Assembly: GCA_022925895.1 (NCBI GenBank) | Contig: JAKSYS010000644.1 | Location: forward strand, 1-35,913 | Direction: 5' to 3' | DNA: 35,913 bases | Origin: Fragilaria crotonensis | Taxonomy: Eukaryota > Bacillariophyta > Fragilariophyceae > Fragilariales > Fragilariaceae | Part shown: positions 1-35,913 of the stretch, in pieces | Layout: every line of letters begins with the position of its first letter | Numbering within the stretch: the first letter of the stretch is position 1 | Notes under the pieces: model-generated | Told to the model about the DNA's origin: nothing | Seen by the model: only the letters and a program-made list of their open reading frames with translations | The model's database searches: none | Translations under genes and position numbers: made by a program

Positions 1-3000
1 TTTCCGTTGATCTTGTTCAAGAATTGTCGCATCGATTGGATCCACTTGGATTCGAGATGCGGAAGAGATTGACTACATTTTCAAGTATCGAATATGATAC
101 GCCAACTGACACTTGGATCCACGCGACTGTGATTCGTAGCATCTTGCCAATTGTAGTGTATTGTCTCCAATGATGTATGAAGGACGAAATCTGGGCTATC
201 CCCTGCTCCACATATAAATCTCGAAAAGTTGCCCCTCCTAACGAGGCTGGACCGAAAAGGATCTCGCGCTTTGTGTTCCGATTGTAGCCGCATCGAGCCA
301 CAAGAATCGAGAGGGCCTTCCGCTGCACCGAGTGGACTTGGTGTTTAGTCATCGACGATGCCGCCAGGGGATACATTACGCTTGGCAAGTAGCATGCGTA
401 GTAATACGTCCATGCCTCGCTTCTCGACAGAGGGTAAGACCACATAAATTTTGTAATCTCATCACTTTTGGCCTTCAGCTCTCGAAATTGGGCTTGTTGC
501 GTGCCGGCTGGGTCTTTATGATGACCTAACGTCTTATGTGCCTGATACGGTGATAACAACTTGACCGAATGAGTAACGTTAGTGATCGGATCAGTAACTT
601 CGACTTTGATGGAAGAAGTTTGCACTACCGGTTTGAAAACTGGGGAGCCATTTTGCGAGAACTGCCATTGCACCACGTGGCACGAACATTTTGAAATTTC
701 CAACGCGCCACCGCTCGCAGAAAGCAAGTTGGTCCAGAGTTGGGCGTTGTATTGAACTCCTTGAAGAATGTCTCCTGGGCTTGCTGAAGGAGATCCCTGG
801 TCCGTGATTTGGCTTCCGCAATCGTCGACAAAACCCGTGATGCCCAAAGTTACTTCCTCCTCTCCTGACGGATCGCGATACACCGCCTTGTATGCTTGTT
901 CGTCGTAACAATCAAACAAGGTGCTCAATAAAAAGCACCAAATAGCGGGAGAATTACCACTTCCTTGACCAGTACCATAGATTGGCTTGTCTTCCTCATG
1001 ACTATATCCCGTTTCGGCTAACCCGGTTTCCACGATAAGATGCCTGACGGAGAGTTTCCGAATTCAATATTGAGACTGACTTTGCTACTCCATATTTCCG
1101 ACTTACCAACATGGCTACCGATGGAATAATGCGATCGTAGCATGCCATCGCATCGTAACTTGTAATTGCCAGAGACTTGCGGGTAATTCTAGATATTTCG
1201 TACTGAAGCTCTTCCAGAAGGACTGGATCTTTAGCGTTCCGCTTCGGTCTCGACCCGTATTGGCCATCATCCAACCTCCTCAAATCCTCTGCTTGGTGCA
1301 AAGCTGATCTCCATTTTATCCCCAGGGCAAGATTATAATCCGCTTCGTATAAATGTATCACTCTTGTACGATGTATTTTGACCACTCCCGGGTCTTTAAA
1401 AAGAATAACATTCGCAACCGTGTGCCATCGCCGATACGAATAACCTCGCTCCAGAGCATAATTCAAAAGTCTGAGATGCACTTCTCGCAGTTCCCGTTGT
1501 TTTTGATCCAGTTCGTTGCGAACAGTCACAAATTCAGGAGGAAGTTCGTCATCTCTTGCATCGATTGAATGCGAGTGTCTACCGATGAGAGCCTTGTAAT
1601 GACCAAGATGAAAACCTGAAGGTGATGTGGTGGTGGATTCGGTCCAAACCTTTAACTTTTGCACAAATTCATCGTCGCTGATGGTGGGCCGAGACGCCAA
1701 TTGCTGCATTTCCTCTATGTGGCGTATGTGGCGTATAAGGATCGAAACGTTTTCATCCATACCTTGGGTATCGAATTGGCCATTAAGAAGATCATCTCCT
1801 GCCCATGATCCGCCGCCAAAACCGAGGGACTCGGCGAGAGGAGATGTGGTGAAAGGTGTACCTTGTGCTTGTCCGAAGTGCTGTTGGTTCCGCCGGGTTA
1901 GATGACGAAGAATTTCTTCTGGAACGTCGATTTGTTGCCATTCGGTACAGACTTTGGGATCTTCTTCAGGATGCACCGGAATCTCTAACCGTGTGACTCC
2001 ATAGCGATCGTTGGATGAGCGCACGTTTTTAAGTTTCCGAAAAAGATGCTTGATATCCTCCACTTTCTTCAGCCGTCTCAGCGATGCCACGACCTTTCGC
2101 TCTAGCGGGTTGCGAGAATTTTCCAGAGCTTTGATCTTCTGCATTCTTTCCGCGTCTCTTCTCTGATAACTCTGTGATACAATTTGTTTCACGTCCTGTT
2201 TCGCTTTCCGAAGGGATGAGGAACAATCTCGGATTGACGTCGGGAGGGATATTGGGTCGTTCAATTCGTGAATCTCTCTGGTGAGGGTCTCGGCGCAATG
2301 AAGACCAGTTTTCAACGATGAGAGACACTTCGATAAGATTGTGACTTTCTTTCGCGCTTCTGCCAATTCGACCGACCAAAATGGCTCTCGATACCGGTGC
2401 GTTTTCCTTTCAGCCGTGAGACTCGCGTTTAGGACATCTTTATCGAGTCGTTCCGCGAACTCGTGTCGATTACCGATGAGACTGAGTCGAGCACTCCTTT
2501 CGAATACATTGTGTTCGGCAAACAATGCATGTTTGAATCGGATATATGCAGTTACTTGATTGATATTACATGACTGTAATATCCTCGGTTCTCTTTTTGA
2601 CAGACTCGGGTGGCTGCTATCTTATCCGAGGTAGTGCCCATCCGTGTGGGTCGAGTATTCCTTATCAAGGATGCTGCGGCAACACGTTAAACATTGAAAT
2701 TAAGTTTTTTTTTTTTTTTGACAGACTCGGTGTCTCTATACCGAACAGGATGGAGTTTTGGAAGTCCAGATAGAATCCTCGATGATCAGAGTGAAGACGG
2801 TGATTGAATGCCTCGTATCCGGCCTTTACCAAAGCCTCTTGAAACTTCTGAGTTGCTAACGCGTAATCAAGACATGATCGTCCTCGAGCGTAAGTTGCTG
2901 GTAATTTTTGCGGATGCTTCGTTGGGATGAGGTTTACCAGTCCTAAGTCGCTCGCTAGAAACTCCATGCCCTCTGAATCAGAGCCGAACTCTTCGTTGAA

Positions 3001-3939
3001 ATCGCCTAGCACGAGAAGTTCATATCCTTTTGATCTGAAGTTTCGTAATTTCATATGAAGGTCTCTCCTGAACGCTGTGCGAGGCTCTTGGATAGCATCG
3101 TTATCCTGGATTAAAAGAACCTGCTGCTGCCGTGCCGTCGTGATGCCTCCTTTGACTGATTTATCGACCACTTGATACACCGAGAAAATGGCCACTTTGC
3201 GATCCGCTTTACCTGTCAGATGCTGTATTGTCCAACGACCCCATTTGTCACTTTCGTGTGCGAGGATACGACCGGTAATGTGACCTGTTGCGAGCGTGAA
3301 AGTGCCTCCTGGTTTATACTGCGTGTGATACGCAATGGGTGTAGTCCCTAAAGTGAGTAGTGACCGCTCCCAATGTTGCCTCGTCGTATCGTACAGCGTC
3401 TGCCTTACGTTCGCCTGGCTTGTATCGAGATTGTGCTCTTGACCGCAAAAAATGTCCCCTTGAATCTCCCGTAAGAGCTCGCAAATTGCGTTGAATTTTC
3501 CTCCTCGTCGGTCGAGATTGATACCATTCACGTTCTGCGAGTAAATTCTTGTTACTCCTTCCGTCTTCTCAGTTAGAACGTCGCCCCAATGTTTGTTTTC
3601 CTTTTGGTTTTGAACTGACAGAGCTGATCTCCTGCTTACGCTGTTGACTGGTTGACTATGGCGCTTAAAGAAATCCTTCCACAAGGTTTGCGCGATGTTC
3701 CTTGGGGAGTTCGTTTCTACCAATTCCAGACGTGTGTGATCACTTGTACTTTCTGTTCGACCTTGTTCTCGCTGTACGTCGTTACACTCTGGAACTCTTC
3801 GTTGTTCACTTTCTGTTCTGATCGCGCCGCTACGTTCGAGTGGACCTTCCCCTCCTTGCGGTGTTTGATTTCTAACATTAACAGCATTCCTGTTTTCTTG
3901 ACCCTGAAGATGTTCTTGACTACAATGACGCTCGATCAT
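1..3939 (-). pseudogene. LINE-A ORF2: AP-type endonuclease plus reverse transcriptase, broken
   Basis: The endonuclease (about 3540-2750) nicks target DNA. Its motifs are NVNGI, CGQEHNLD, GDFNE, CLDY and SDHRG, which are the Asn, Glu, Asp/Asn and Asp/His sites of the exonuclease-endonuclease-phosphatase fold. The reverse transcriptase (about 2000 to the left edge) has motif A SYDAMACYDRI, motif B YGTGQGSGNSPAIW and motif C GFVDD. ORF2 starts with ATG at 3937-3939, one base after the ORF1 stop. The frame is cut by the insertion at 2610-2714, and joining across it restores an alignment with LINE-B. A 1-nt frameshift lies near 1042, between the RT fingers and motif B, and another near 50. The RNase H seen in LINE-B would lie beyond the window edge. 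Confidence 0.85.
2610..2714 (+). mobile_element. 105-bp 5'-truncated LINE tail with 3' oligo(T), inserted in LINE-A ORF2
   Basis: The 16-bp sequence tttttgacagactcgg occurs at 2594-2609 and again at 2715-2730, which is a target-site duplication. Between the copies lies a plus-strand tail ending in a T run (2705-2719). The core ccgtgtgggtcgag at 2642-2655 and the acacgtta block near 2684 match the 3' ends of LINE-B, NA1 and NA2. Removing the insert and one duplication restores the LINE-A ORF2 frame, so the insertion came after LINE-A. Only the 3' end was copied, as expected from aborted target-primed reverse transcription. Confidence 0.85.
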
Positions 3940-3940
3940 T

Positions 3941-5742
3941 TCAAACGTCTATGTCGTCAACTGTCGTTTCGACTTGTTGACGCTGCTGGTCCAGACTCGG
4001 ACTATCCCCCGCGTTCCTCCGCTCCCTGGGAGGTCCAGGTTTCTCTGAGAGTTGGCCTTTTGTACCAACTTCGCTATCTCCTTCATTCCGAGAATGTTGA
4101 AGATCTTCTGAAATCATCGGCTCGTCGGTTACCACTCTAAAGTACTGAATTATTGTCTTTTGAAGTTGGGAAGTTCTGATAGGTTGATCAGTTTCTTGAC
4201 TCTCTGGCGACCTTCTTACGCTTGTTGAGCCCGGATCAAGTATTACTAGTGAACTGTCCCCTAGCTGATGACTTGAATCCACCTTTGGTGCTTCCGAGTG
4301 CTGCTGGAGAATCTCCTTGAAATGATCGTCACTGACTTCCGCATCTGCGAATATACCTGGCCTTGCTTCGTACAATTTTCGAGGCGGGGGAGTAAGTGCC
4401 CTATCAGCCTGGATTGCACTCGAGTCAAATGACGGATCTTTTTGTAGCTCTTGTGATGGGTAGTCTAGTTGAAACGGGTCTAAAGGACTCTCTGGGTCTC
4501 GTGCTGACCAATGATGTGATTTGGAATCAGGAGACCATTTTTCAGTTCGATGCTGTAGCTGGCCTTGTATAATTGACTGGTCCATCGAGATATCGGACAA
4601 ATTGACCATTTGTTGATGATTCCCTGGTTCAACAGTTAGCCTAGCATCAATCAACGGGATTTTCTCTGAAGTCGCACGAGTATTCTGCCTCTTCCGGACT
4701 GCAAACGTTACCGCTGGACTTTGTGCTTCTCCTTGTTCCGCAATGGTGTTCTCCACATCTGAGTCAGCGACCCGTGCAAATCGTTTTCCCATTGGTTGCG
4801 CAAACATCATATCCGTTAACATCTGCATTTGCCGATTCTGGTTTGCCAGGAATGCCTTGAACTCGGGATCTGAATTGAAACTCGCAGAAGGAGGGGGTGG
4901 TTGCTGTGCCTGGTGGGCCTGAATTGCCGCTTCAACTTTTCTTGCAATCTGGAGCTCCATTTCCTCGTTCTGTTTTGCTACTTGTCTTTCGAAGTCCTGA
5001 CGTTGGGTTGCCATTTGACGCTCCATAACCAGCCTTTGCTCTTACGCTTTACGCTCCACTGCCATCTTGTCTTGCTGAGCTTTCTGTTCCAATTCTCGCC
5101 TCTGCAGTTCCATTTCTCGTTGGTGAAGTTTATTTGTTTCCTCATACGTATTAATCCTCATACGCAATTCTTCCACTTCTGCCCTGCTCGAAGCTAAGTC
5201 GGATAGATAATCTTCGTCGAAGCTCGTGCCTTGCGTGGTCGTTGGTACACTGTTCTGGTCTGTTGAAGGAGATAACTTTGCGCCTCGAAGGCGTTGCGCC
5301 CATGTTTTCTGACCTCCTTTATTGACTATCACGTTCACAGTCCTTGGCGCACCGGACTTCTCAGGTTCATCTTGAATCATGTGATCCGAGAGTGTAGAAG
5401 TATACGACATTGCCGTATTAATGCTTGATGACATGTAGGTTTCTTCGCCACTTGAACATCCATCCGAATAAATCGGAGCGACTTCAGGATCTCCCGGAAG
5501 CTTCTGGTTGATTTCTTTTGCGTCCTCTGGCACATACTCCTCGTACCATTCGTTCAAGTTTCCTAGAAGGTATTCGCGAATTCCAGTAAAATCTTCTTTG
5601 CCAACCAATACTTTGTGGCGTCACTCGACTAGGGCCGTGGGAGTTTGGACAACATCAAGGACTCCATTCACTGATAGGATGTGTGGCGATAAGTAGTACA
5701 TAGCATCCACACTGATGTTATTCAGAACAATCACGCGATGTT
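3941..5742 (-). pseudogene. LINE-A ORF1: putative nucleic-acid-binding coiled-coil protein, broken
   Basis: One frame of about 600 codons can be followed from roughly 5742 to the TGA at 3941-3943, with an in-frame TGA near 5630 and an in-frame TAA at 5042-5044. The middle is rich in Glu, Gln, Arg and Lys in a heptad-like pattern (about 5200-4900), so a coiled coil is likely. The rest is Ser, Thr, Gln and Pro rich and looks disordered. No CCHC knuckle or RRM was seen. By position it is the ORF1 protein that would package LINE RNA. Family assignment rests only on position next to ORF2. The true N-terminus is not found: sequence right of 5742 is closed in this frame. Confidence 0.6.
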
Positions 5743-14619: not shown

Positions 14620-14698
14620 TGTCAGTGCATCTACTCACGCGCTTGTCTCAAGCCACCATTGCTATACTACAGTACCGTACGAGATACTGTGATCATCA

Positions 14699-15547
14699 AA
14701 AAAAAAAAAAAAAAAACCGAATATCTATTTTACGTGCTGCCGCTGTTCCGGACGAAGACGGAACTCGACTCACACGGATGACCGCTACCCTGGGGTACAG
14801 CAGAGGCCACCATAATTGTTTTCTGTTACTGCAGTACTGTCGTACTGAAATTGTGCCAAATAATGCTGCATGGAGTCGTCGTATCATAGGGAGGGTGACT
14901 GTAGTGCGGGAAAAACCTTGGATCATTGAACTTAGTTGCCGTAGGTTTAGTTGTCGCATTGTACGTCGGTAGCATGTAGAGCACCACCATATGGTGCGTA
15001 GCGGTATACTCGGAGGATCGGGTCACTCCAACTTTCGTTCGGAATTTGGTAGCGGTGTGTTCGGTCATTTGAAACGCCAAAGGGCGCGTAGCGGAAAGGT
15101 GTTGGGTCATGGAACTGGGTGGAGTCACCCCAATAGTCATATCGGATTTCATCACAGTACTTCGGTCAGCAGTAAAATAGGTCACGGTGCTGGTATGGAT
15201 ACCAGCAATCGGTCGGAGGTCCTTCGTCGCTGATGGTGTTGAATCAAGCAAAATTCGGGGGATAGACAGCGTAGAAACAATACCGGTTTCTACATGAGGA
15301 AAAAATCGATCACGTCGCACATCTGATGATACCTCAAACGCTGCAACCGCTCCATACGCGTTGATGCCAATTGCACCACAATCATTCTCAAGCATATTGG
15401 TGTTGATACTTGTAGACGGAGGTCGGGGAAGGCTGTAGCGCCATCCTTTGACTTGACTTTGTTGTGCTCTAAGTTGCGTAGAAAACGTACCAGAACTCAC
15501 GTAGAAACAACCACTTACTTGGCAAAAACTCCTCGGAAAAAATTCTA
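14699..15547 (-). mobile_element. NA1: non-autonomous LINE-like element with oligo(T) 3' end
   Basis: The insert is flanked by gagatactgtgatcatca at 14681-14698 and 15548-15565; the empty site is preserved in the right LTR near 32400. On the minus strand it runs from about 15547 to a terminal T run (seen as A at 14698-14716). About 849 bp match NA2 (34775-35730) in reverse complement, but NA1 lacks the first 115 bp or so. Its last 80 nt match the tail of LINE-B. A minus-strand frame of 245 codons (15563-14826) is open; its start lies in flanking DNA, and NA2 has indels in it, so coding is doubtful. No RT or endonuclease is present. Confidence 0.85.
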
Positions 15548-15865
15548 GAGATACTGTGATCATCAGTGTACCGTATCTATGTGGTACTGTCGTATTGCTA
15601 TACTGACCGGACTAGGCTAGTCTAAAAAGGAGTGGACCCTTCCACTCCGGTCACAACTTCATCATAGCTTAAACATTTACCCTCAATCGCATCTTTGCCG
15701 GTCTGGGATCGTAAAGGTGACGAGGGATCATTTGCTGCTTTGATACTACAGCACCAACACTTTCCAGCGAACTCGCAACACGTTCGGACACGCTTGTTCT
15801 TACTTGTTTCGACTTGTTTTGACGATCATTGTTGATCATCGTCACTTACGCGAGCCCTTCCTCCT

Positions 15866-16077: not shown

Positions 16078-18270
16078 ATGTCCGACGCTGGGGAGCTCGA
16101 CCACTCGAATGACTGTGTTGTTATCACCGTGGATATTCAGGGCTGCCCTTTGGCGGAGATCCCGCTCACCGAGCTCTTCGATATCCCCTCATCGACCCTC
16201 CGCGATACTTACCACGATAGCTACCATCCGCGAGTCCGTCACCCTCCAACTCGAGGACACGCCCTGGCTTCGTCGTGCCGACGACGCTCGGCGTCTCCTC
16301 CACGATGCTGGTTTTGGCATGTACCATGCCCGGGATCGCACGTCGATCATCACGCTTCGCAAGCCTGCGCTCCAGCGTTTGATTCTCCAGTGCCTTCAGG
16401 AACGTCCCCGCCCATCCAGTACCGTCCATGTCCATGTTCTGATCCGTTTCTTGTTGCCTGACGTCGACATCCCGACACCACCCCGGACATCTCTCACGTC
16501 CGACAGCGAACGTGACAGCCGCTCCCGCTCCTCCCACGGACTCCCGTCTGAGATACGCACCGTCGCTTCCGAGTCGTCTGCGGTTCCCGCGTCCGACACC
16601 TTCCGACCCGTTGCGGCCACACCCGTCGACCCTGACGTCGCTACCCCTCCGCCGCCCACGGATCCCCTTCCTGCTGCCCCCGTGCCTACTACTTTTCGTG
16701 GCCACCCCGTGGATATCGGGACCGCCCACGATCGCGGTACTCCTTCGGCCCGTTACCGGACCCCGACGGACGACGCCCCGCCTCCCTCGGCGGCGGCGCG
16801 TACGATGTTCGACTCTGGCACCACGGCGCGATCCCGTGCGCTCGTTCGCACGCCGACTCGGAATCATCCGTTCTCGGCTGAAGTCACCTTTGGCGCCGAG
16901 ACTTTCGAGGAGTACATGACGCAGTTCATGTATGCGGAGGTCAAATTCAAGGACTTCCGCAAGGCTGTTATCCCAAAGTTTGACTCCCAACGACAGGATT
17001 CTTTCGTCCACTGGTACAAGCTCTTCTGCTCCACATGCTTGCAATGGGGCGTCTGGTGTCCCCCCTACGAATCCGCCCAGGAGGATATGGTCCATGGCGC
17101 TTGGTGGAACCTCCTCCCCGCCTCTGTCCGTCAAGCCGACCGTTTCATGTCGGGACTTATATATTCTGCCCTCATCTTAGATAGCACCTTCCCGGCTGGT
17201 ACGCGGGAATATAGCGCCGTTGAGGGTTGTCCCCCCAATGCCGGCTACCATGCGTTGTACGCTCTCCTTCGCCTCCATCATCCCCTGCTTCATTCTGTCC
17301 TCTCGACCGCGAACGAGATCCCGAAACAGCGTCGCACGGAGCAATTCGGTCTCTACATCCGCCGTCTACAGGATTTTATGGCTCGCGAACGTATGGCCAC
17401 ACGGACCTATACTGAATCCGAAGCCCTTGACCTGGCCGTCCGCAACCTCCTCCCCGACTGGCGCGCCGAGTTCCGTCGCATGGTTGAACGCGATAAACGC
17501 ACCGGTCCCGGTTGGACTCTACCGACTGGCGCGCCGAGTTCCGTCGCATGGTTGAACGCGATAAACGCACCGGTCCCGGTGGGACTCTACCCTTCAAGTT
17601 GGCTTTACCTCAACTGGCCACGACTTTCGTCGAGTATGCTGCCGAGCTCGGCCGCGATGCTAGCTCGGCTATCGTCCTCCATTCGCGCTCCTCCGGCTCC
17701 CACGCCGTTGTCCGTCGGATTGAGACCAACCCAGCCCGTTCCCTTGGGAACTCCAGCACCGATGAGAGCCTCGGCGACTCCGAGATTGATTTTGTCATCA
17801 ATGCCATCACCAACAACCAGGCTGCCTCTTCCCTCTGTCTTGGGTGCCATCAACCCGGCCATACTCTCGCGGATTGCAACCGGTTCGTGGACTACATCGT
17901 CGCGGAAAGCCTCGCTCAGCGCAACCCGCAACTGAAAGCGCACATTGCCGCCTCCCACCAACAGTTCCGCAGTCGCCTTACTGCCGCCCATGCTCGTGGT
18001 GGTCGGGCCTCCCGCTCCGACGCCGTTCGCAGTCTTCAGCTCGACACGTCTACGCAGGCTACCGTTGCTTCGTCACTTGGCAACGTCCCGACGTCACCAT
18101 TGCCCCCCGCTTCTTCGGTCCCGCCCGACCTCCACCTGGGTGACGACACCGACGATCTGGACGACTCCTTCCCGCCTGTCTCCATCCGCTCCGTGACCCT
18201 CCACGTCACTTCGCCCCCTGTTTCCGGATGCGTCCCCACCGGCACGCCCCCTGCTGCGCCTTTGCCCCCC
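16078..18270 (+). pseudogene. Copia C gag with CCHC zinc knuckle, broken
   Basis: The first plausible ATG is 16078-16080 (MSDAGELDHSNDCVV). A frameshift near 16200 moves to the frame with QLEDTPWLRRADDARRLL. A long Pro/Ser/Thr/Arg-rich linker follows (16400-16850), then the conserved capsid-like core (FAVHWYKLF-like region near 17010, WWNLLPASVRQADRF). A 68-bp tandem duplication at 17454-17589 shifts the frame again. The nucleocapsid knuckle CLGCHQPGHTLADC (C-x2-C-x4-H-x4-C, 17836-17877) follows and binds element RNA. The gag/protease boundary at 18270 is approximate. Confidence 0.75.
17454..17589 (+). repeat. 68-bp tandem duplication inside copia C gag
   Basis: Two adjacent copies (17454-17521 and 17522-17589) both contain gactggcgcgccgagttccg and match almost perfectly. 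68 is not a multiple of three, so the duplication alone knocks gag out of frame. The second copy reads on into the knuckle frame. The near identity points to a recent event, or possibly an assembly artefact. Confidence 0.9.
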
Positions 18271-18864: not shown

Positions 18865-20031
18865 CATGCCAGCCTTGTCACACTCCGCCTCGCGACCCGC
18901 CGGATTTTTGTTAGGCCCGTCATCTGCATCACCCTCTGATGACACAGGGCCTCTTCCAAATGGGTGCGGGGCGACTGCCGCGGATCACCAAATCTTGTCG
19001 CCACCGCAGCGCCCAGCGGCCAGGGTCCCACCCGATCCGTCTTTATTGTCGACGCAACTCCCTTCGGACGCAACTCCGAATCCATTTCCCTGTCACGAGT
19101 CACCTCTTGACGATGCCCCTGTTCTTCGGAATACCGTTGCCGACCCAGAGCGCCTCATCGTACGATCCCTTAATCGGTCAGCCCTACGAATGCTTTGGCA
19201 TCAGCGTCTAGGCCACCTCAACTTCCGGCGCCTCTCCGACATGCACCGTTTTGTAAAAGGTTTCCCCAAAATGTCGCTTCCGACCGAGCTTGACAGCTGT
19301 CCTATCTGTTTGGCAGCCAAAATGCGGAAGACTCCTGCTGGCACCACGACCACAATGAAAGCCACCACTTGCTATCAAGGTCTCTCCATTGACTTCGGCT
19401 TCATGCCGATCGGCATCGCAATCTTGTCGGTTTCAACGGCGAAACCTGCTATGTGCTCCTCACGGACCACTACAGCGGCCGCCTGTTTGGACGTGCTTTT
19501 GCTTCGAAGGCACCACCCGTCGACTGGTTGAACAGCTGGTTGGCAAACAACGCACCGCAATGCACGAACAAATATGTACGCATGGATGGCGGTGGCGAGT
19601 TGGGAAAATGCCGAGAGGTCCATCGGACTTTCACCAATTTTGGATATTCTGTTGAGCTAACCGGCCCGGATTCGTCGCATCAGAATGGTCCTGGGGAACG
19701 CCCTCACCAAACCATTGGTGACGCCATGCGCGCCATGCTCTCTGGTGCCAATCTCCAACCAAACTTCTGGCCTTATGCCTTTTATCACTACCTTCGCCTG
19801 TATAACTTTGTTCCACATGGCGACCGGCCCTCCAGTCCATTTGAGATGTGCGGTGCACCACTCCCGAACCTGTCGAGATTGCGAACATTCGGATGTCGCG
19901 TCTATGTTCGTCCCACCACGCCTCGTCTGGGTCGCGTTGTTCCTAATTCCAGAACGGGTGTGTTCTTAGGCTACTCTCGCACGTTAAAAGTAATGTACTA
20001 CTATGACTTGGAAAGTGCCATGGTTAAGACA
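18865..20031 (+). pseudogene. Copia C pre-integrase and integrase, interrupted by LINE-B
   Basis: The HHCC zinc-binding pre-integrase motif is WHQRLGHLNFRRL with CPICLAAK (about 19197-19325). The integrase core has all three catalytic acids: Asp in SIDFGF (19391-19393), Asp in VRMDGGGELG (19585-19587) and Glu in SSHQNGPGERPHQT (19696-19698). A frameshift near 19405 separates the first Asp from the rest; other frame problems lie near 18870-18960. LINE-B is inserted after SRTLKVMYYYDLESAMVKT, and the frame resumes at 29135. The enzyme would insert element cDNA into the genome. Confidence 0.85.
20015..20031. repeat. Target-site duplication of LINE-B, left copy
   Basis: gtgccatggttaagaca is repeated exactly at 29135-29151. 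Joining the flanks restores the copia C frame through AMVKTATHARF. Confidence 0.95.
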
Positions 20032-20158
20032 AAAAAAAAACCAAATCTAATTTAACGTGCTATCCCAGTGTCCGTAGAATATAGACACGCGACCCACACG
20101 GTGAGACCGAAGCCTGGTGTTAGACCTGACCTCACAACATTGGTTTTTTCCTGAATTC
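20032..20158 (-). other. LINE-B 3' UTR and conserved retrotransposition tail
   Basis: Read on the minus strand, the tail has ccgtgtgggtcgcg (20101-20088), then cacgttaaa about 20-30 nt later, then the T run 47 nt after the core. The core and spacing recur in NA1, NA2 and the insert at 2610. By analogy with LINE/SINE pairs it is probably the site read by the LINE-B reverse transcriptase. Confidence 0.7.
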
Positions 20159-23100
20159 CTAGCGTTTCTCCCAATATGACTTCAACGATCTCATCCCTTT
20201 GGTTGCTAACTTAGTCGCCCGCTTTATACTTGTCCTTAAGATCGGTTCATTGATCTGAAACCATGTTTTGATATGCCACGTGGGCTTAACTTCATGGTCA
20301 CGGATATCAGCCATCAATAGTTCCCGAGCCGTCGGTTCATACTGATTCCGCAGCGCATACAACTCTCGCAACGTTTGCAAAGCGTTCCGCCTGTCCACCA
20401 GGGCACTTAACCTCGCGTCTGCACCATGTAAATCATTATTCCGACTTTCCCATAGTAAATACCAGTTGTCCCACAGTTTCTTGATAATGGCGACTTGCCA
20501 CTTGCCACCTTTGCAACTTTTCTTCGGGTTAGGCCGCGTTGCATAATGCGCATCCTGCAAATCCACCCATGCCCAACTGAATCGTCCGAGAAAGATGTGC
20601 TTCCAGCCGATCTGGTTTTGTTGTTGTATAAGGAGTTCGTACTCATCATCGTATATTGCGGTTTCCAGTTGATATGACGTGGGATCAGCACATTCCAACC
20701 AACCTCGGATTCCATCCAACAGTATCGCTCGTAGACCAGGACGAGTTTCCCATTTATCACAAGTCTTACCAAGAACCGTTATTAGAGTCGCTCTCCACGC
20801 CGCTCGACTCGAATGAGGACATCGCAAAATGTGTTCCCAATCCTCATCATGACACGGACATGCCGGGCAACCTCTTCGACTGGGATCGCGTCGATGCTGG
20901 AAGTGATTAGTAGGAAGAATACCCTGAACGAGCTTGATGAAGTGATCGCGGCGCTGAATCTGATTGTGTAGACATGTGGCATGGGCTTTCCAATTGATCC
21001 TGTCCGTTGTACTGGGCTTCCATCCATTGCGGGATTGTAGATGTGCCAGCAACGGTGCATACGTTGCTTGATATCGTATCGCCGATTTGTATTTTGTCGT
21101 GACGGTACCTTTTGGAGTAACCAAATGCACTCCAGCTCCCTCCACCAACAAAGCGTGGGGTCGTATCATCCCGAACTCGCGTTGGAAAGTATTTGCCATT
21201 GCGTCAGCGTCTACATTCAATTGAGCCATGAGATTCAATCGTTCATAAGCGACCTTGCGATCTTGGTGACCTCTGACGTGTTCTAAACTAAGCCCCGGCA
21301 TTTCGTGAAGCAACCGTCGAATATTAACAATAAGATCCGATTCCGGGCTCAGGGGATCGAGCGGAAGTTGCTCTGATCCGGCTCCGACTCCGTTGCCTCC
21401 GCCACAGTCAGCTGTCTTTTGATGCCCAAAACTGTCTCCACCAGACTCAAACTGTCCGTCGCAAGTGTCCCTTGCCACGGTTCATGTTGATAAGTAAATT
21501 CTGCAAGGCGTTTCAAAAAACACAACATCGCCAACAACCCATACGCTTCAGACCGGTATGAGTTTGGCGTGGCGCCCGGCGCAAGACCCATCCCTTCTGC
21601 TGTCCGTTCACCCTGGTCCGTACTCATCACCCATCCAAATGCCCCCATTTGCTTAAGCCATACAGACCCGTCGCTGACGCCTCGCACACCGTGTGACAAG
21701 GCAAGTCCAACCGTGAATGGATCCGTTGTCATAGCTGTGCGTACCAATAATTCGTATTCCCACGGCTCAAGGTCTTCAATATATTGCTCGAACGTAGCAA
21801 TCTGCGGTTTCCGGGGAGAGGTAAAGACAGTGCTCCGAGCAATCACCGTCCATTCTACCTCCTCCGTGACTTCACGAACCTCAACCGGAACCGCTTCATG
21901 AGGGATGTGCTGCCACTCACAATATCCACGAGTCTGTCGGTATCTGTACTCCCCTTCTTGTCTTGACAGGTCACAGATCATATAGTCTTGACCATCTCGA
22001 ATCCATAAGCGATTGCGTAATTGATATGCTGAATGGCTTTGTCGAAGCTTGTTGATTTTTGTAAGCCATGGACCTAAGGCCTGGTACAACTTCCCGGAAG
22101 CATCGCTCCACAGTAGATTCGCACGTTGCCACAATTTCCACTCCAGTGAAGACGGTCGTTTTTGATGTATCCACATGCCATGAGTACAACTGCTGTTGTG
22201 GGAGAACCTCCCTTCGTATTTCGCCTGATCTAGATAACAACCGGAAACGTCCGTGAGATCAGAGATGGTTTGCGCCTGAAGATAGAGACGACAATAATTG
22301 AGGCGCTTGATCTCCGATGCAGAAAACGTGTTAGCCTCCAAAATGGCATCCATAATATGACTGTCATGGCATCGTTGGAGTGTTGGAATGCCCGGAGTGT
22401 CGAGTTGAAGACATGATTGTATAGAATGTAAAAACTCCCGTAATGAAGCGAGCCACTTCGATTCCAAATGTGGAAGGTTTGTGTCAACCTTTTCCAGAAA
22501 CGAGTATGATGTGCCAATCTGATACTGAAACCAACCCACCGCTATACGTAGCAACTTTCCAGCCGTTGAGTTTAATCTCCAGTTCCGAAGGAATAATCCA
22601 ACCTGTCCAATGCCTTGTTCAACATAAAGGTGTCTGAAATTGGCGCCGCCTAACTCGAGCGGTCCGTAGAGGATCTCACGCTTGGTGTGACGATTGAAGC
22701 CACATCTGGGAACTATGATAGACATCGCTTTACGTTGTACCTGATCCAGTCGTTTCTTCGTGAGAGATGAGCACGCTAATGGATAACCAACACTCGGGAG
22801 ATAACACGCATAGTAAAACGTCCATGTTTCAAGTCTGGTAAGGGGACATGTCCACAGAAACGACGTAATCTCATCGCTCTTCGATCTTAATCGCCGGAAC
22901 TGTTCGTTTTGATTACCGACTGGTGCCTTATAATGACCCAGTGTCTTATGTGCCTCATAAGGTGACAACAAAGGAAGTTGATATGTTTCCTCTGTAGACC
23001 TGTCAATGACTCGTAACGCTGACTGGTGTGCAGATTGTTTCGGTGCCAAAAACGGTGCACCCTGCGTTGTGAACCACCAATGAAGTACTTGACACGAACA

Positions 23101-26100
23101 TTTGGATAATTCTAACGCCCCACCACTCAAATAAAGTAAATCGTTCCACAATTGTGCGTTCTTCTGTGTGCTCTCCAAGATACCTTGCAACGTTTCATCC
23201 GATCCTGGCGCCAGGAAATTATTAACTTGTCCATTACAATCATCAACGAACGCCACAAGACCTAAAGACACGGACGTGGATTCATCCGGCGAGTAATACA
23301 TTGCCGGCGTCGCCACCGTATCGTATGCATCCATGAGACAACTCGACAAAAAACACCAAATCGCTGGAGAATTAGCACTGCCTTGTCCAGTGCCATAAAT
23401 GGGTGCATCGACTGTATGAGAATAACCCGTAGGTGCAAGGCCCAACTCCGTACGAACCCGAAACTCCGCCTTCTCCAAGGTTAAAGCATTTGCCTGCGTC
23501 ACTGATAAAGGAACACCAAACTTCCGGCTCACAATCATTGCCTCGTTTTGAATAATCCGATCAAAGCATGCCCGTGCGTCATAATTGATAAGAGCAACAG
23601 ACCTCCGCGTCGCCCGTGAGATCTCACACTGCAATTCCTCAATAAAAACCGGATCGGTTGCATTACGTTGCGGTCTAGATCCATATTGTCCCTCATTCAA
23701 CGCCGCCAAAGCTTCTGCCTGGTACATTTGAATTCTCCACTTAATTCCCAAAGCAAGATTAAAATCCGCCTCATAAATGTGGATCACCCGCGTTCTATGC
23801 AACCGCACATTGTCCTCATCCTTGAAAAGGATTGTGTTGGCAATTGTTTGCCATCTCTTGTAGGAGTACCCTCGTTCGAGCGCGTAGTTTAGCAGAGCCA
23901 AGTGTAGATGTAGTAGATCAGTTTGCATCATGTCTAATTCTGCTCGATTGGCTCGGAACTCCGGAGTCAACTCCTCGTCTGGTAACTCTGAGGAGTAAGC
24001 ATGTCTCGCGATCAAAGCCTTGTAGTGACCCAAATGCAATCCTGACGGGGACGTTGTCGTGGATTCCGACCACACACGCAGTTTGCTCGTGAATTCTTCT
24101 AAAGATATTGTAGGGAACGAGGGAGTTGCGGCCATTTCGTGCACTTGTTCCAAGTGCTGGAGGAGGAGTCTCACATTTTTACTCACTATGTCATCCTCGT
24201 CCGGTTGATGTTGATAATTGCCTTCAAGAATTTGTGTACTCAATGGTTGATCTCCACAGAAGCCTAAATTGTCGAGGAGTGGTGGTACAGTGAAGGGAGT
24301 TCCTTTGGCCTGTCCAAAATGTTCTCGATTTCGTTCCTGTAGTAACCGAACAATCTCCGTGGGTACGTCGACTTGTCGCCACTCAGTGCACGTTTTGGGG
24401 TCATGATCTGGATGCAGCGGAATTTCAATACGCGTTACTCCCTGGCGTATTCGATTCTTCCTCACACCGCTGATCTTTCGAAATAGCTGTTTGATGTCCT
24501 CGGCTTTTTCATATGTCGTAACCTGGTGGCAGCTTCTTTATCAGCTTTTTTCCCCGACTTTTCGAGTGAGTCAATTTTCTGTTGACGTTCTTGATCACAG
24601 CGTTCATAACTCGCAGCAATGATTTCTTGAATAGTAGATTCTATTTCGCGAATTGCCGCGGTACAGTCACGCACTGTGCGAGGCAACGGCACTGGTGATG
24701 AGAGTTTGGCCATTTTGCCTGCCAGAATACTCGAGTGATCATACTTCGTTCGAAGTGCTGAACGATGTTTCTTTAAAATGTTGACCTGCTTTCTGGCTTC
24801 CGCTAGTTCAACAGACCATGCAGGTTCTCCAAATTTTTTCACTTTGGTTGCCGCAGTGAGACTTGCCGCCAGCACATCCTGGTCCAGTCGTTCTGCAAAG
24901 GCATGTCTGTTACCCGGTTTTGACAACTGTACACTTCGATCGAATGCATTATGATGCTGAAAGAGGATTCGATGCTTCTCCCGAATATAATCCGTCACCT
25001 GCTGTATGTTACTGGACGACAAGTCTCTCGCCTCCGATGATACCAATTGTTGAGTACTTGAACCAAAAAGCAAGTTCGTGTCAAAGTCAAGAAAGAACCC
25101 ACGATGATCGGACACCACATGCGCGTTAAACTCTTCGTATCCGGCTGAAACCAGGGCTTCGCTCACGGAGGAGCTTGCCAGAGTATAGTCCAACCGTTTC
25201 GTTCCTCTTGCGTACGTGGCCGGTGGATCAAGCGAATGTCTACATGCCATTAGATCAATTAGACCAAGTTGTCCCGCAATCTTACTCATGCCATCGGGAT
25301 CAGCACCAAAAGTTTCATTGAAATCTCCAACCACTAATAATAACATGCCAGCTGCAGCATATGTTTGGAGGGCTTTCAATAAATCGCGCCGAAACGCCGT
25401 TCGCGGATTGAGAACCGGGTCCTGTGCTAAGCGGAGTAAACTTGCTTGTTGCGCCGCCACTGTGATAGTACCTGGGCTCACTGTCTTATCCACTGGTTGA
25501 TACACCGAGAAGACCGCGATCTGCCGTGCTCGTTTGCCCGAGAATTCCTGAACTACCCACCGTCCCCACGGATCTCGATTTTGACGAACCACTCGACTCA
25601 TCAGACTATCGACCGTCAAGATCATAGTGCCCCCTGGTTTATAAGAGTTTTCCACCGTGATGGGTGTTGTTCCAAATGATATGCGATGTTTCTGCCAGTG
25701 TTGCTTTGCAGCTTCGAATAGTACGCTCCGAATCCTGAATTGTGTGGTGTCCAGGTTGTGTTCCTGTCCGCAAAATATATCCGCTTGAACTTCCTTGATT
25801 GACCGACAAATATCATCAAACGTTCCGCCTCGCCGATCAATAGAAATACCGTTTACATTAATTGAGTATAGTCTCGTGATATGCACCTGTTTGGGTCCTA
25901 GTGCATCTCCCCACGGCACATTAGAACGAACGTTTGAGGTTGTGATAGCCTCTGTCCTTGCGGACGAACTGTCCGCGTTTGCTGTGGAGAAGAGCTGTCG
26001 CCATTGTAGCTTTGCCCTTTCCAAGATGGTAAGGGAAGTAAGTGATGAGTGTTCCGGGGTCTGGTTTTCAGAACCTTGAGGTGCATCTTCCGGCGGTATC

Positions 26101-26147
26101 AAAATTTCCCCCGCAGATGCAAGCGATGTATGCAATCGTTGACTCAT
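20159..26147 (-). pseudogene. LINE-B ORF2: endonuclease, reverse transcriptase, RNase H, CCHC finger
   Basis: About 2000 codons with two 1-nt frameshifts. The endonuclease (about 25880-25070) keeps NVNGI, CGQEHNLD, GDFNE, RLDY and SDHRG. The RT (about 24440-22600) keeps INYDARACFDRI, YGTGQGSANSPAIW and FVDD. The RNase H (about 21690-21180) has its acidic quartet in VSDGS, RSEAYG, ATDSLS and NVDADAMA. A CPACPC...H...CPH finger follows near 20870. The frameshift near 24510, at an AAAAA run, separates endonuclease from RT; LINE-A is continuous there. The second is near 21365, within RNase H. The start ATG overlaps the ORF1 stop (taATG). This is the full enzyme set for target-primed reverse transcription. 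Confidence 0.9.
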
Positions 26148-29033
26148 TACGTGGCATCCCGCCCAGCCGGATCACTTGAGTTAGTGTATTGAGCGTCCGG
26201 GGGGCTTGGATTTTGCTGGGGAGTTGATAACGGCAGTTGAGAGTTTGTGTCCTCAGGTCGGTGGTCAGTAACTGAGTTATGGGCACCTGTGGTAGTATCT
26301 TCGACGTTGGGGAGTTCATCGTCAAATAGCTGCATTTGAACATCGTCCAAAGCCATTGGAGAAGTCTCTGCCCTTGAGTTCTGCTGCTCTTCATTCTTCC
26401 TTGTTTTCTTCTTTTCCGGAGACCTGCGATACCTAGAGGATCCATCACCAGAGGCTATGGATCGACTATCACCTGTGCCGGGAACAGTTGTACCATCGAC
26501 CTCTGGAATTTGCAGGGCCATGTGTGACAGTGGTATCTGAATCGACTGTTGGACTCCTGTGAACGGTAAGACGCCCGACGCAGCAGTGGTGAAGCTCGCT
26601 TGATGCATTAATGTGTGAAGCATAAGACGCATGCTTTCCATAGTTATGTTGAAGCTCGCAAACTGTGTTTGAAGTCCAGCCACAGTGTGCGTCATCTCCG
26701 TTATTGTTTCCATGGTTTCTCTCAGACTCTGTTCGTTTGCTGCCAACCTATCTGACGAATCTTGTGTAGCCTCCCGGTTCGATCGTAAGAGTTCTCTACA
26801 TTCCCTCATCTGATTTTCCAACTCTGTCATTCTTGTTGTCGTGGACGATCGTAACGTATTGGTCAAGGAATGAGTAGAAGCTGTATCTGCCCGCTCATCA
26901 ATCTCGTCCAACAAGGTAAGGCTGCTGATCTGCGACGATTTCCCTTTGGTTTGTGATTTCGGGTTGGGTTTTCCCTTTGGCGAAGCTGTGGTACCTGGCA
27001 TTCTTGCCGCCTCAATCGAATAGTCTTTATCTCCTGGTGGTCGTTTGACTAGAGACGGCCACTGCGGACTGTTATCTCTGTTGACCGTGTCTTGCGGCTT
27101 AACTGAACTTGTTTCTTTACCCGCAGACTCAACAACCGAAGGCGACTTAACCGAGGGCGGGGCTTTACTCCAGATGTCAACAGATGACAATTTTGCCATG
27201 AAGTCTAAGTTTGTTTGGACAGTGGACGTAATATGAATTACGTCTGGCAAATCAGGAATTCTCACGATATTTCTCTTCTCTGTGAGAAATCGGTCGCAAT
27301 CTTTCCTTATATTGCATCACCATTGACTTTATTTCTGTTGCGTAGGCTGCGGGGGCCATAACATAGGCAGTTTTGGAATTCTTAATACCATTGACCACGT
27401 CACATTGAGCATGAGTCTCTCCATCGACTCGCCGGAGTGATAACACCCAATCACGAGTCGACCTTTCGATTGTTGTTCCATCCGAAAAATATTCAATCCG
27501 TTTCAAGTCTAATGTTGTGACCAGTGGCGCCAAGGAGATTGGCCTTAAGGCTCGAATATACTTTTCGTGCATTTGGAAGTGATTATCAATTTGATCGGTT
27601 GACATGTTTGCAAAGGTATATCGAGGAAGAAAAACAGCTGTCTGGTGCCCGTTTAAAATCTTTGAGAGCCCTTGACAAAGCTCAGCCACCTGCTTTTCAC
27701 CACAGTACACCACTAAATGAGCAATCGACTTGTCTGTCGGAGTCTTCCGATGGAGGCGAATATCAAAATAAGGTAGTGTGTCCACCATTCGAGACCGGAG
27801 AAACTGTGTGTACTTGTGACGTAAGGTCATTGTCGGGTGTTTAAGCAATATGTAACCTGCCACAACAGGAATCCCCGCCTTGGGCGTGACATTAGACTCG
27901 TGAATCTTCAGATTGTTCAATTTCATTGCCGACTGGACATGAGTCGAGTTCCTCCACGAAATGGGATTCTCACTGAACGCAAAACGTACGGCGAATACAA
28001 TCAACTGCATTGTATGCACCTTCGTGATCTGGGGTTCCAAATACTCATCAAGATCAGAAACCGTCAACTCATGTACTCTTTTTGGATGGACTAGTTCAGT
28101 GCTGTCCCACATGTAGAAACATCCATCGGCTTCCATAAAAGTAATGCTCAACATTGCATGGATTTCCGAAAGGAGACGCTGTTTGTTGTCGGCCAGATCG
28201 TTGAACTCCTTCTGCACAAGTTTCCATTTAAACGAGATGCGATGAGCGCCGTCGTTGGTCATGAATTCATTACTTAGTGTAAAGGCTGATTGTTTAGCAT
28301 CCGACTCTGAGTTTGATTCGCCATCTACATCGAAAGTTGTATTTCTCAGTGACGTAGATGCCTCTTCTGGGTCCGATCTTGGAGAATCGCATTTGCTTCC
28401 TGTCATTGCCTCAGAGTCCGGAATACTAAATCTTGTCATTGTTTTACTGGGTAGTCCGACTTCCTCCTCTGTGATGGGACAGTTTGGCGTCGTCATTGGT
28501 GTCATCTTGACATTGCGTTTGTTTACACCCTTCACTGCCTTCCACAAACCTTTGTCCAGGTGCTTTGCGAAGTAAGCAATAATGTGCGGCCAATTGAAAC
28601 GCTCTGTGTCCATTTCCAAGGACTCTGGTGAATGCTCAAGCAGGAAAGGTTGAGAAACTTTGTTTGCCCACGCATATAGCTTAGGCGAGACGTTAAGTTC
28701 TCAATCCACATAAGACTTGTAATTAAACCATACAAGGCGGTGAAAACACAGTGGGTCAGAGTTACGCTGTCGCCAAATCGTATCGAACTCTTGTCCACTC
28801 ATCGCCTGGAATCCCAAGGACGTGAACCGATGCCAACTAGTCGGTGAAACTGAACGACGATAGCCATCATCATCAGCCTGCCTTTTTTCGAGCGCTGCTT
28901 TCAAATCACTATCGCGTTCGATCAAAACAGGGTTTGGAACGTAAGCGACTATAGTGAAACTGAACTCAGATGAGGTGATATCCAATGGGATATCGGAAGC
29001 GAAGAACGGCAACGGGGCCGTTCCTTCGGTCAT
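26147..29033 (-). pseudogene. LINE-B ORF1: very long ORF1 protein with coiled coil, broken
   Basis: Starts at ATG 29031-29033 (MTEGTAPLPFF). One frame runs to 27252 with an in-frame TGA at 28701-28703, then a 1-nt frameshift at about 27260 leads into the frame ending TAA at 26147. The combined product is about 960 residues. The N-terminal 590 residues look globular (HTMQLIVFAVRFAF, DTLPYFDIRLHRKT, LVVYCGEKQVAEL) and match no ORF1 type I know. The C-terminal third has VIHITSTVQTNLDFMAKL, then Ser/Lys-rich sequence and a coiled coil (TELENQMRECRELLRS to about 26630). It presumably binds element RNA. No RRM or zinc knuckle was seen. Confidence 0.7.
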
Positions 29034-29134
29034 GGTGAACGGTGCGGAGATACGCAACAACTTCCTACTGTTTCTACGGATGTACGGTCAAAGGACAGAA
29101 CTCAATGTAAAAACTCGAAACTAGAAAATTGTGT

Positions 29135-29151
29135 GTGCCATGGTTAAGACA
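29135..29151. repeat. Target-site duplication of LINE-B, right copy
   Basis: gtgccatggttaagaca, identical to 20015-20031. It marks the 5' end of LINE-B as complete or nearly so. Confidence 0.95.
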
Positions 29152-32326: not shown

Positions 32327-32338
32327 AATGGGGGAGTG
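32327..32338 (+). promoter_or_regulatory. Polypurine tract of element C
   Basis: aatgggggagtg directly precedes the right LTR. It is the expected primer site for plus-strand DNA synthesis. Confidence 0.8.
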
Positions 32339-32785
32339 TGTCAGTGCATCTATTCACGTGCTTGTCTCAAGCCACCATTGCTATACTACAGTACCGTACG
32401 AGATACTGTGATCATCAGTGTACCGTATCTATGTGGTACTGTCGTATTGCTATACTGACCGGACTAGGCTAGTCTAAAAAGGAGTGGACCCTTCCACTCC
32501 GGTCACAACTTCATCATAGCTTAAACATTTACCCTCAATCGCATCTTTGCCGGTCTGGGATCGTAAAGGTGACAAGGGATCATTTGCTGCTTTGATACTA
32601 CAGCACCAACACTTTCCAGCGAACTCGCAACACGTTCGGACACGCTTGTTCTTACTTGTTTCGACTTGTTTTGACGATCATTGTTGATCATCGTCACTTA
32701 CGCGAGCCCTTCCTCCTGCCTTACGTTTAATCTGCTCCCTGGCGAGTACGTGTAAACGTAAGGCTCTGGAAAGTGTGGTCTGACA
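32339..32785 (+). repeat. Right LTR of element C (447 bp, uninterrupted)
   Basis: Starts TGTCA and ends TGACA. It differs from the left LTR at three positions that I found (two near the 5' end, one mid-LTR), about 99% identity. It contains the intact target sequence into which NA1 inserted in the other LTR, and the same 12-bp inverted repeat (32718-32729 and 32753-32764). Confidence 0.95.
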
Positions 32786-34273: not shown

Positions 34274-34400
34274 AGGGACCTAACGACCAAGACCTACCGG
34301 TCTTGGCTTCTGCAAAACCCACTAGCTCTCGGGCTACTACCCTAATAGTAGCATGAAAACAATAGCTAGCCCATCGGGACGAAAAACCCCTAGAGAAAGG
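34274..34400 (+). repeat. 127-bp direct repeat, left copy
   Basis: Contains two perfect inverted repeats: ccaagacc/ggtcttgg around tacc (about 34288-34307) and gctacta/tagtagc around ccctaa (about 34332-34351). The same sequence is at 35787-35913. Confidence 0.85.
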
Positions 34401-34774
34401 CGGTAGACTAGTTTCGACGATCAACGCGGGACAAGTAGCGTCGGGACAAGGTCTACAGTACGACGATGGCAACGATCAGCGCACGGTCAACCGGGACTAC
34501 AGCATGAATACCGCATTATGAAATTATAGTAACGGTCACACACGAAAGAGTCCAGAGTACGGTACCACAGTACGAACGAAGTATGAACACGACGGAAACG
34601 GAGCCGGATGTACAGAGAATGCGAACGAGTGGATGCAAATGCATCACGTGGAAACGGTACCGGGAAGACGCCTAGAAGCGACCGATGGAACGGCAACTGT
34701 CATCGACACTTTAAGTTCAATTGGATTTATCGTGCCTCTCTCGAGACTATAGTGATTAACACTTCTAAAATTCC
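34401..34774. other. Non-coding interior between direct repeat and NA2
   Basis: No domain or long frame. gatgca/tgcatc around two bases near 34633 is a short palindrome. The stretch ends in the left copy of the NA2 target duplication, taacacttctaaaattcc (34757-34774). Confidence 0.4.
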
Positions 34775-35730
34775 ATCAAGCAAATGCCACATACTGCACA
34801 CCATGCCAACGTACCAAGCATGGTGAGTCATGGACCCAAGTACGAGCCATCGAATAGCGCAAAGAAAGGGTCAATCGGAATTGCCTGGCTCTCCAGAATT
34901 TTTTCCGAGGAGTTTTTGCCAAGTAAGTGGTTGTTTCTACGTGAGTTCTGGTACGTTTTCTACGCAACTTAGAGCACAACAAAGTCAAGTCAAAGGATGG
35001 CGCTACAGCCTTCCCCCGACCTCTCGTCTACAAGTATCAACACCAATATGCTTGAGAATGATTGTGGTGCAATTGGCATCAACGCGTACGGAGCGGTTGC
35101 AGCGTTTGAGGTACCATCAGATGTGCGACGTGATCGATTTTTTCCTCATGTAGAAACCGGTATTGTTTCTACGCTGTCTATCCCCCAAATTTTGCTTGAT
35201 TCAACACCATCAGAGACGAAGGACCTCCGACCGATTGTTGGTATCCATACCAGCACCGTGACCTATTTTACTGCTGACCGAAGTACTGTGACGAAATCCG
35301 ATATGACTATTGGGGTGACTCCACCCAGTTCCATGACCCAACCCCTTCCGCTTGCGCCCTTTGGCGTTCCAAATGACCGAACACACCGCTACCAAATTCG
35401 AACGAAAGTTGGGTGACCCGATCCTCCGAGTATACCGCTACGCACCACATGGTGGTGCTCTACATGCTACCGACGTACACTGCGACTACTAAACCTACGG
35501 CAACTAAGTTCAATGATCCAAGGTTTTCCCGCACTACAGTCACCCTCCTATGATACAACGACTCCATGCAGCATTATTTGGCACAATTGCAGTACAACAG
35601 GCGTATTGCAGTAACACAAAACAATTATGGTGGCCTCTACTGTACCCCAGGGTAGCGGTCATCCGTGTGAGTCGAGTTCCGTCGTCATCCGGAACAGCGG
35701 CAGCACGTAAAATAGATATTCGGTTTTTTT
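34775..35730 (+). mobile_element. NA2: non-autonomous LINE-like element, longer copy, oligo(T) 3' end
   Basis: Flanked by aacacttctaaaattcc at about 34758-34774 and 35731-35747. The 956-bp insert ends in seven T at 35724-35730. From about 34890 on it matches NA1 in reverse complement, with small indels and roughly 95% identity by eye. The tail core ccgtgtgagtcgag is at 35663-35676. The reading frame open in NA1 is shifted here near 35020 and 35345. The first 115 bp (34775-34890) are absent from NA1 and may hold the true 5' end; no clear pol III boxes or tRNA-like head were seen. Confidence 0.82.
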
Positions 35731-35786
35731 AACACTTCTAAAATTCCCAAGCCCACCCCTGGACACAAAAATCCCGGGGATTCTGT

Positions 35787-35913
35787 AGGGACCTAACGAC
35801 CAAGACCTACCGGTCTTGGCTTCTGCAAAACCCACTAGCTCTCGGGCTACTACCCTAATAGTAGCATGAAAACAATAGCTAGCCCATCGGGACGAAAAAC
35901 CCCTAGAGAAAGG
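35787..35913 (+). repeat. 127-bp direct repeat, right copy (continues past window edge)
   Basis: Matches 34274-34400 throughout as far as I can read. It is preceded by aaaatcccgggga, a possible purine-rich primer tract if this is an LTR, and by ttctg. The repeat is truncated by the end of the window. Confidence 0.85.

Follow-up and report, generated by a model that had tools for sequence, protein, structure and literature searches.

The genome of Fragilaria crotonensis harbours a group of LINEs that end in oligo(T) on the coding strand, behind a conserved RNA stem-loop, and the same tail is found on short non-autonomous elements. The group was analysed in a contig of 35,913 bp (the window, that is the whole of contig C607) and in 62.1 Mb of genome sequence on 881 contigs. 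The best explanation, which we consider fairly probable, is target-primed reverse transcription in which the stem-loop is recognised and synthesis begins, with slippage, on an oligo(U) run. Four elements of the window carry the tail (Table 1), and all four end in oligo(T) on the tail strand, as a sequence-only reading of this DNA had pointed out. In LINE-B the run lies past the C-terminal ORF and so, as was also said, on the coding strand. Beyond that reading, the tail proved to be a covarying stem-loop common to the whole LINE group, and the 105-bp insert proved to be a LINE end.

Table 1. Tail-bearing elements of the window, their parts and their target duplications.
Feature	Position	Strand	Remarks
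LINE-A	17..5026	minus	relative of LINE-B near the contig start; carries the 105-bp insert
105-bp insert, target duplication, 5' copy	2594..2609		TTTTTGACAGACTCGG
105-bp insert with its T15 run	2610..2719	plus	inside LINE-A; five T shared with the duplication
105-bp insert, target duplication, 3' copy	2715..2730		the run ends with its first five T
14698 element, target duplication adjoining the T run	14681..14698
14698 element	14698..15547	minus	non-autonomous, 850 bp, T19 end
14698 element, other copy of target duplication	15548..15565
LINE-B, target duplication, 3' copy	20015..20031		TGTCTTAACCATGGCAC (element strand)
LINE-B	20031..29134	minus	9,104 bp; ORFs with APE-type endonuclease, RT and RNase H-like/Cys-rich part
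LINE-B, T10 run	20031..20040	minus	one T shared with the target duplication
LINE-B, 3' untranslated tail	20031..20158	minus	128 nt past the stop codon; T10 end
LINE-B, conserved RNA stem-loop	20056..20100	minus
LINE-B, C-terminal ORF	20159-21478	minus	RNase H-like and Cys-rich, in another frame; motifs by eye
LINE-B, RT ORF	21349-24465	minus	FVDD motif read by eye
LINE-B, endonuclease ORF	24462-26147	minus	APE-type; PF03372 match
LINE-B, target duplication, 5' copy	29135..29151
Empty site of the 14698 element	32338..32537		in the second repeat copy; junction with one T and no run
34775 element, target duplication, 5' copy	34756..34774		TTAACACTTCTAAAATTCC
34775 element	34775..35730	plus	non-autonomous, 956 bp, T7 end
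34775 element, target duplication, 3' copy	35729..35747		takes in the last two T of the run

An APE-like endonuclease domain is present in both LINEs of the window (PF03372; E=2.3e-11 in LINE-B and 6.7e-8 in LINE-A). The reverse transcriptase (RT) domain of LINE-B matches PF00078 with E=6.5e-6 and 26.4 bits, below the curated cut-off of 29.6, and scores 29.7 bits, above that cut-off, together with its neighbours in frame; a PDB sequence search returned no match. The two LINEs align in two fragments of the RT region, with 57% and 59% identity. The last ORF of LINE-B ends at 20159, so that 20031-20158 forms its 3' untranslated tail. Marks of an APE-type LINE were found: endonuclease, RT, target duplications of variable length and 5' truncation.

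The 14698 element sits in one copy of a repeat whose second copy, at 32338-32699, lies beside copia-type ORFs; by inference the repeat is a copia-type LTR. The 105-bp insert matches the last 105 bp of a LINE copy on contig C224 by 97%, and is therefore the end of a related LINE family; another LINE copy, on C413, is 98.6% identical to the C224 copy over 776 bp. A Pol III-promoter head (tRNA, 5S or 7SL), as expected of a SINE, was not found on the short elements: there is no tRNA within the window, and Rfam gave no match in the window or in loci L009, L039, L050 and L053. The sequence-only reading had given each of the four elements its own exact target duplication, which holds, and had placed these duplications wholly behind the T run, which does not: they share 1, 1, 2 and 5 T with it, and just 11 of the 16 bp in the duplication of the 105-bp insert are clearly outside the run. 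The spacer between the core of the tail and the T run, put at 47-49 nt, is 49, 49, 49 and 51 nt long by hand count.

Three other repeats were observed in the window. An exact 127-bp direct repeat (34274-34400 and 35787-35913), 1,513 bp apart, touches the contig end and is either LTR-like or an assembly-end effect. An array of 102-bp repeats, ankyrin-like by eye, occupies 10440-12473 within an ORF, and the next ORF contains a protein kinase domain. A 68-bp tandem duplication lies at 17454-17589 in a copia-type region.

A genome search with the LINE-B RT found 909 candidates at first look; 44 of them were scored and show 49-100% identity. The tail was checked at 32 of the 44, 17 of them places already seen and 15 by their downstream region. 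It was present on the coding strand in 31 of these 32, about 1.2-1.8 kb past the RT match (on C784 it was recognised by eye as a variant), and was not found downstream of the RT on C23. A run of at least five T was found in 30 of the 32; on C431 the run is T3 only. The C-terminal ORF of LINE-B was matched in 35 of 74 tail loci. Twenty-eight of the 74 have this match in sense orientation, with 121-164 nt between its end and the T run (L050 and L061, counted here as two, are one place), and in the other seven of the 35 it lies elsewhere, once in antisense only (L029). A conserved 3' tail is thus common to the LINEs and to short elements, as in LINE/SINE pairs of the stringent type. RT queries against viral_contigs and genome_contigs revealed no relatives elsewhere; a loose tail pattern matched viral_contigs unspecifically, and those matches were set aside. 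The tail group is known here from one genome.

In order to count the T runs, we used a tail pattern that ended before the run, which keeps the count free of a bias towards T-ended copies, and allowed at most one mismatch. The pattern occurs at 290 places in the genome, compared to 13 for a reversed control. One hundred of these places were examined, all exact matches on contigs C1-C300; 30 fell in loci from earlier searches and 70 in 69 further regions. Pooled with the loci from other searches they gave 144 rows, representing 134 distinct insertions, in each of which the longest T run no more than 34 nt from the stem was measured. The counts agree with the oligo(T) end and go against a majority of A-ended copies, which would have refuted the sequence-only reading: 127 of the 134 insertions have T5 or more and 107 have T7 or more, with a median of 9. 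An A run of five or more occurs nearby in seven, and the 3' A-rich tail of poly(A)-tailed LINEs was not found. The run is T4 or less in seven of the 134 (L028, L072, L092, L122, L135, L140 and one of the two facing tails of L142), and in a few loci, for example L070, the counted run is not at the very end. The run of L014 is interrupted by a G; the runs are otherwise pure T. Nineteen near-identical copies, including L021 and L025, which share target sequence, have runs of T7 to T19 and none shorter. These lengths are taken from the assembly, in which homopolymer lengths can be wrong. At L142 (C300:27243-27392) two tails face each other, and the T14 of one abuts the other, which has no run of its own.

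A different LINE-like element was observed at C155:62389-64770 (L159), where EEP and RVT_1 domains lie in one open frame of 4,666 codons. An A15 run stands about 275 nt past its stop, and an A-tailed type may therefore coexist in this genome. Contig C880 has 14 rows of RVT_1 matches, possibly RTs of organelle introns, which is a guess.

The fold of the tail is one long stem-loop of up to 15 pairs, followed by an AU-rich linker, conserved and about 15 nt long (approximately TWAAATTAGATTTGG), and then by the T run. Its outer helix pairs CGUGU with GCACG, its middle helix pairs GUCG with CGGC, and its inner helix consists of 6 bp of variable sequence. In a set of 20 tails, from which L028, L070, L071 and L072 had been left out beforehand, every one of the six inner pairs has a two-sided change in at least one tail. 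Covariation scores 0.496 in this set, compared to 0.223 for shuffled sets, and the numbers of changed pairs and of pair types were equalled by 52 and 141 of 500 shuffles, respectively. A wider set of 35 rows was made from 37 diverse tails by leaving out L047, which has a degenerate end, and L090, which has an 8-nt duplication. Here 94.3% of the cells are paired, eight of the 15 pairs show changes on both sides, and the covariation score of 0.394 was reached by none of 500 shuffles (0.227 shuffled; 0.075-0.110 in slid controls). RNAalifold kept 13 of the 15 pairs in this set; pair 21-43 is open in 11 of the 35 tails. Five of six tails folded singly gave the stem in essence, and L050 folded otherwise. 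A structured linker was considered and rejected, as 71 distinct linkers do not have a lower mean fold energy than shuffled ones.

Pairs are formed in 494 of 524 cells when the sense strand is read (90 cells are G-U) and in 422 of 524 when the antisense strand is read. The better pairing of the sense strand makes it very probable that this strand is the RNA, in the short elements too, with the T run at its 3' end.

Two empty sites demonstrate that the T run belongs to the element, as the sequence-only reading held. The joined flanks of the 14698 element match the copy at 32338-32699 with 99% identity in an alignment that crosses the junction and covers 200 of the 258 bases, and the joined flanks of L031, which is inserted in a tandem repeat, match three neighbouring units at 93.5-96.1%. 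At both sites the junction shows just one T, so the run is brought by the element, and a run derived from the target is rejected. L017 has a self-match of 78.6% that spans its junction; this match was left out of the empty sites.

A target duplication of at least 12 bp was found in 33 of the 74 loci; with LINE-B this makes 34, of which 32 are distinct, with lengths of 12-21 bp. The other 41 loci, many of which are the ends of longer LINEs, have no duplication of at least 12 bp within 1.7 kb. At least one T is common to duplication and run in 29 of the 32 (one T in 17, two in nine, four in two, and five in one, which is the 105-bp insert). The duplications of L014, L021 and L033 are not flush with the run, by eye because of an interrupted run in L014 and a mismatch in L021 and L033, and the table of sites accordingly consists of the remaining 29 rows. 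The first shared T is preceded by AC in 17 of the 29, compared to 8.6% at T-run starts in the same loci, and by C in 21 of the 29, compared to a background of 29.5%; the site of LINE-B itself reads GC|T. AC^T sites on the element strand mean that the priming strand is nicked by preference at 5'-A/GT-3' and ends in at least one A. Such a site preference might be enough to account for the shared T, even if no pairing takes place.

Copies truncated at their 5' end to 71 bp and to 102-110 bp retain the T end. The 71-bp copy, L073, starts at the base of the stem-loop and is flanked by an exact 19-bp duplication; as it consists of the tail alone, the tail was enough for insertion. The units of 102-110 bp (L039, L044, L045-L047 and L027) come from two families and start at an apparently homologous base, in GTGGC/GGTGGC, about 42 nt before the core. 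The common start suggests a defined unit of about 105 nt or a fixed stop of reverse transcription. No duplication was found at L045-L047.

One pair of copies appears to be source and daughter. The 34775 element is 98.1% identical over 961 bp to L016 (C125:68 kb), and the match takes in about 120 bp upstream of the L016 element, including its 5' duplication; the other copies compared start with the element itself. Duplications flank the L016 element on both sides, so L016 is read as the source, and the 34775 element is best read as its daughter, with about 120 bp of the 5' host flank of the source and none of its 3' flank. The transcript of the 34775 element would then have its start beyond the element, an argument against Pol III initiating internally, and the copy ended in the T run although its transcript began in host flank. 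The run is T17 in the source and T7 in the daughter.

In the mechanism that we propose, the RNA would carry a run of U at its 3' end or close to it. The most likely template of this U run is the T run in the source copy, and the transcript would either end in the U run or be entered there. The LINE protein probably recognises the stem-loop of the tail. The priming strand would be nicked at 5'-A/GT-3' (5'-AC^T-3' on the element strand), which is shown here as a site preference, and the terminal A of the primer, usually one or two, may pair with the U run, from which reverse transcription would start. Slippage would give each new copy a T-run length of its own. The short elements are probably copied in trans, as suggested by the tail, T run, target site and duplications that they share with the LINEs.

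A T run encoded in the DNA and T added at each insertion produce nearly the same genomic picture, and non-templated addition is the main rival, to which we give a rather low probability. The RNA would end at the linker, and the RT would add a run of dA to the primer before engaging the RNA, which would appear as T on the sense strand. The free variation of run length among near-identical copies, the different runs of source and apparent daughter, and the sharing of just one or two primer A by most targets are all in its favour. However, free addition would be expected to leave runs of 0-3, and none of the 19 near-identical copies falls below seven; mixed bases would be expected as well, and the runs are pure T in all but L014. 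The junction between linker and run is, moreover, nearly constant within families. The sequence-only reading had offered a U-ended template and non-templated synthesis side by side; this choice is supported, and the evidence favours the templated U run without settling the matter. Priming on oligo(U) also has a variant, possible but in our view less likely than not, in which an ordinary poly(A) mRNA reads through into the host flank and the U run serves the enzyme as an internal entry point. It would explain the use of a Pol II mRNA although the copies have no A end, and would give the stem-loop the role of a fixed entry place, but 3' transduction was not seen: 29 of the 32 duplications are flush, and inspection by eye accounts for the other three with no need of extra flank. 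Internal entry would still be compatible with this.

RNAs made by Pol III end in U, and transcription of the short elements, perhaps even of the LINE, might be by Pol III and terminate within the T run. In favour of this, sense T runs of more than six are absent from the interior of both non-autonomous elements of the window and of LINE-B (less its first 20 bases), while the 19 tails have at least seven. By an estimate from base composition, however, the absence of an internal T7 is about what chance would give; LINE-B has nine internal sense runs of T5-T6, and the 14698 element a T6 at position 6. Neither a tRNA nor an Rfam match was found in the window, the 34775 element derives from a transcript that included host flank, and a coding Pol III RNA of 9 kb is implausible; we regard termination by Pol III as quite improbable. 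Hardly any credence is left for the views that the T run comes from the target DNA, was created by the assembly or represents the A tail of an antisense RNA. The five T of the target duplication at the 105-bp insert could be read in that way, but both empty sites have one T, just 1-2 T are shared in 26 of the 32 duplications, and the run recurs in nearly all of the pooled insertions. An antisense poly(A) tail is contradicted by the truncated copies, which retain the T end, and by the structure, which fits the sense strand. Target-primed reverse transcription on a templated U run remains our preferred reading.

LINE reverse transcription is usually explained by a poly(A) or a short repeat at the RNA end. 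We see about an even chance that here a whole LINE clade has exchanged the A run for a U run, priming with a terminal A on oligo(U) beside the stem-loop and sustaining short parasites with the same tail. A clade with oligo(U) beside a structured tail would lend itself naturally to testing the function of the 3' repeat, be it primer pairing, slippage or RNA stability. Annotation that expects A tails may read T-ended elements on the wrong strand. A literature search yielded no description that we recognised as that of a T-ended LINE, which does not show that none is in print.

We file the group as APE-type non-LTR retrotransposons with a tail of the stringent type. With L1-type LINEs it has the APE endonuclease, target duplications and 5' truncation in common. 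The L1 target site is A/T-rich; the group described here targets AC^T, has no A tail and has a conserved 3' stem-loop. Oomycete L1 elements with an archaeal-type RNase H resemble it in combining APE, RT and RNase H, and a term search of the main text of that paper returned neither "tail" nor "3 end" (PMC5348765). The RNase H-like motif here is, by eye, GHQD, and the host is photosynthetic, with 61 PF00504 light-harvesting matches. The elicitin family gave no match in this genome, nor did its controls, and a 5.8S rRNA motif likewise gave none. The preference of Entamoeba SINE1 for T-rich target regions, as described in one report (PMC2996970), is a different matter from the T tail.

LINEs with non-A repeats and SINEs that share the tail of a LINE are both known, according to a 2013 review (PMC3747384). 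Its examples of 3' repeats other than poly(A) include (TTG)n of plant RTE, TAA of the I element and TGTAA of UnaL2, whereas the repeat here is homopolymeric T. In the stringent LINE/SINE pairs, as in eel UnaL2, the 3' tail is common to LINE and short elements, lies beside a terminal repeat and is thought to be recognised by the LINE (PMC3747384); here the terminal repeat is oligo(T), not TGTAA or A, and the short elements of the window were found without a tRNA, 5S or 7SL head. Poly(T) is counted among SINE tails by AnnoSINE, according to its description (PMC8825457), and among plant SINEs the p-SINEs and the Au-like ones have poly(T) or a short stretch of T at their end (PMC3747384). The T end, as described, is common to them and to the elements analysed here, and here the LINE itself ends in T. 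The same review considered that T-ended plant SINEs may be moved by partner LINEs, unidentified at that time, that recognise a poly(U) repeat, and if our reading is true, the clade in F. crotonensis would be a partner LINE of the kind postulated there (PMC3747384).
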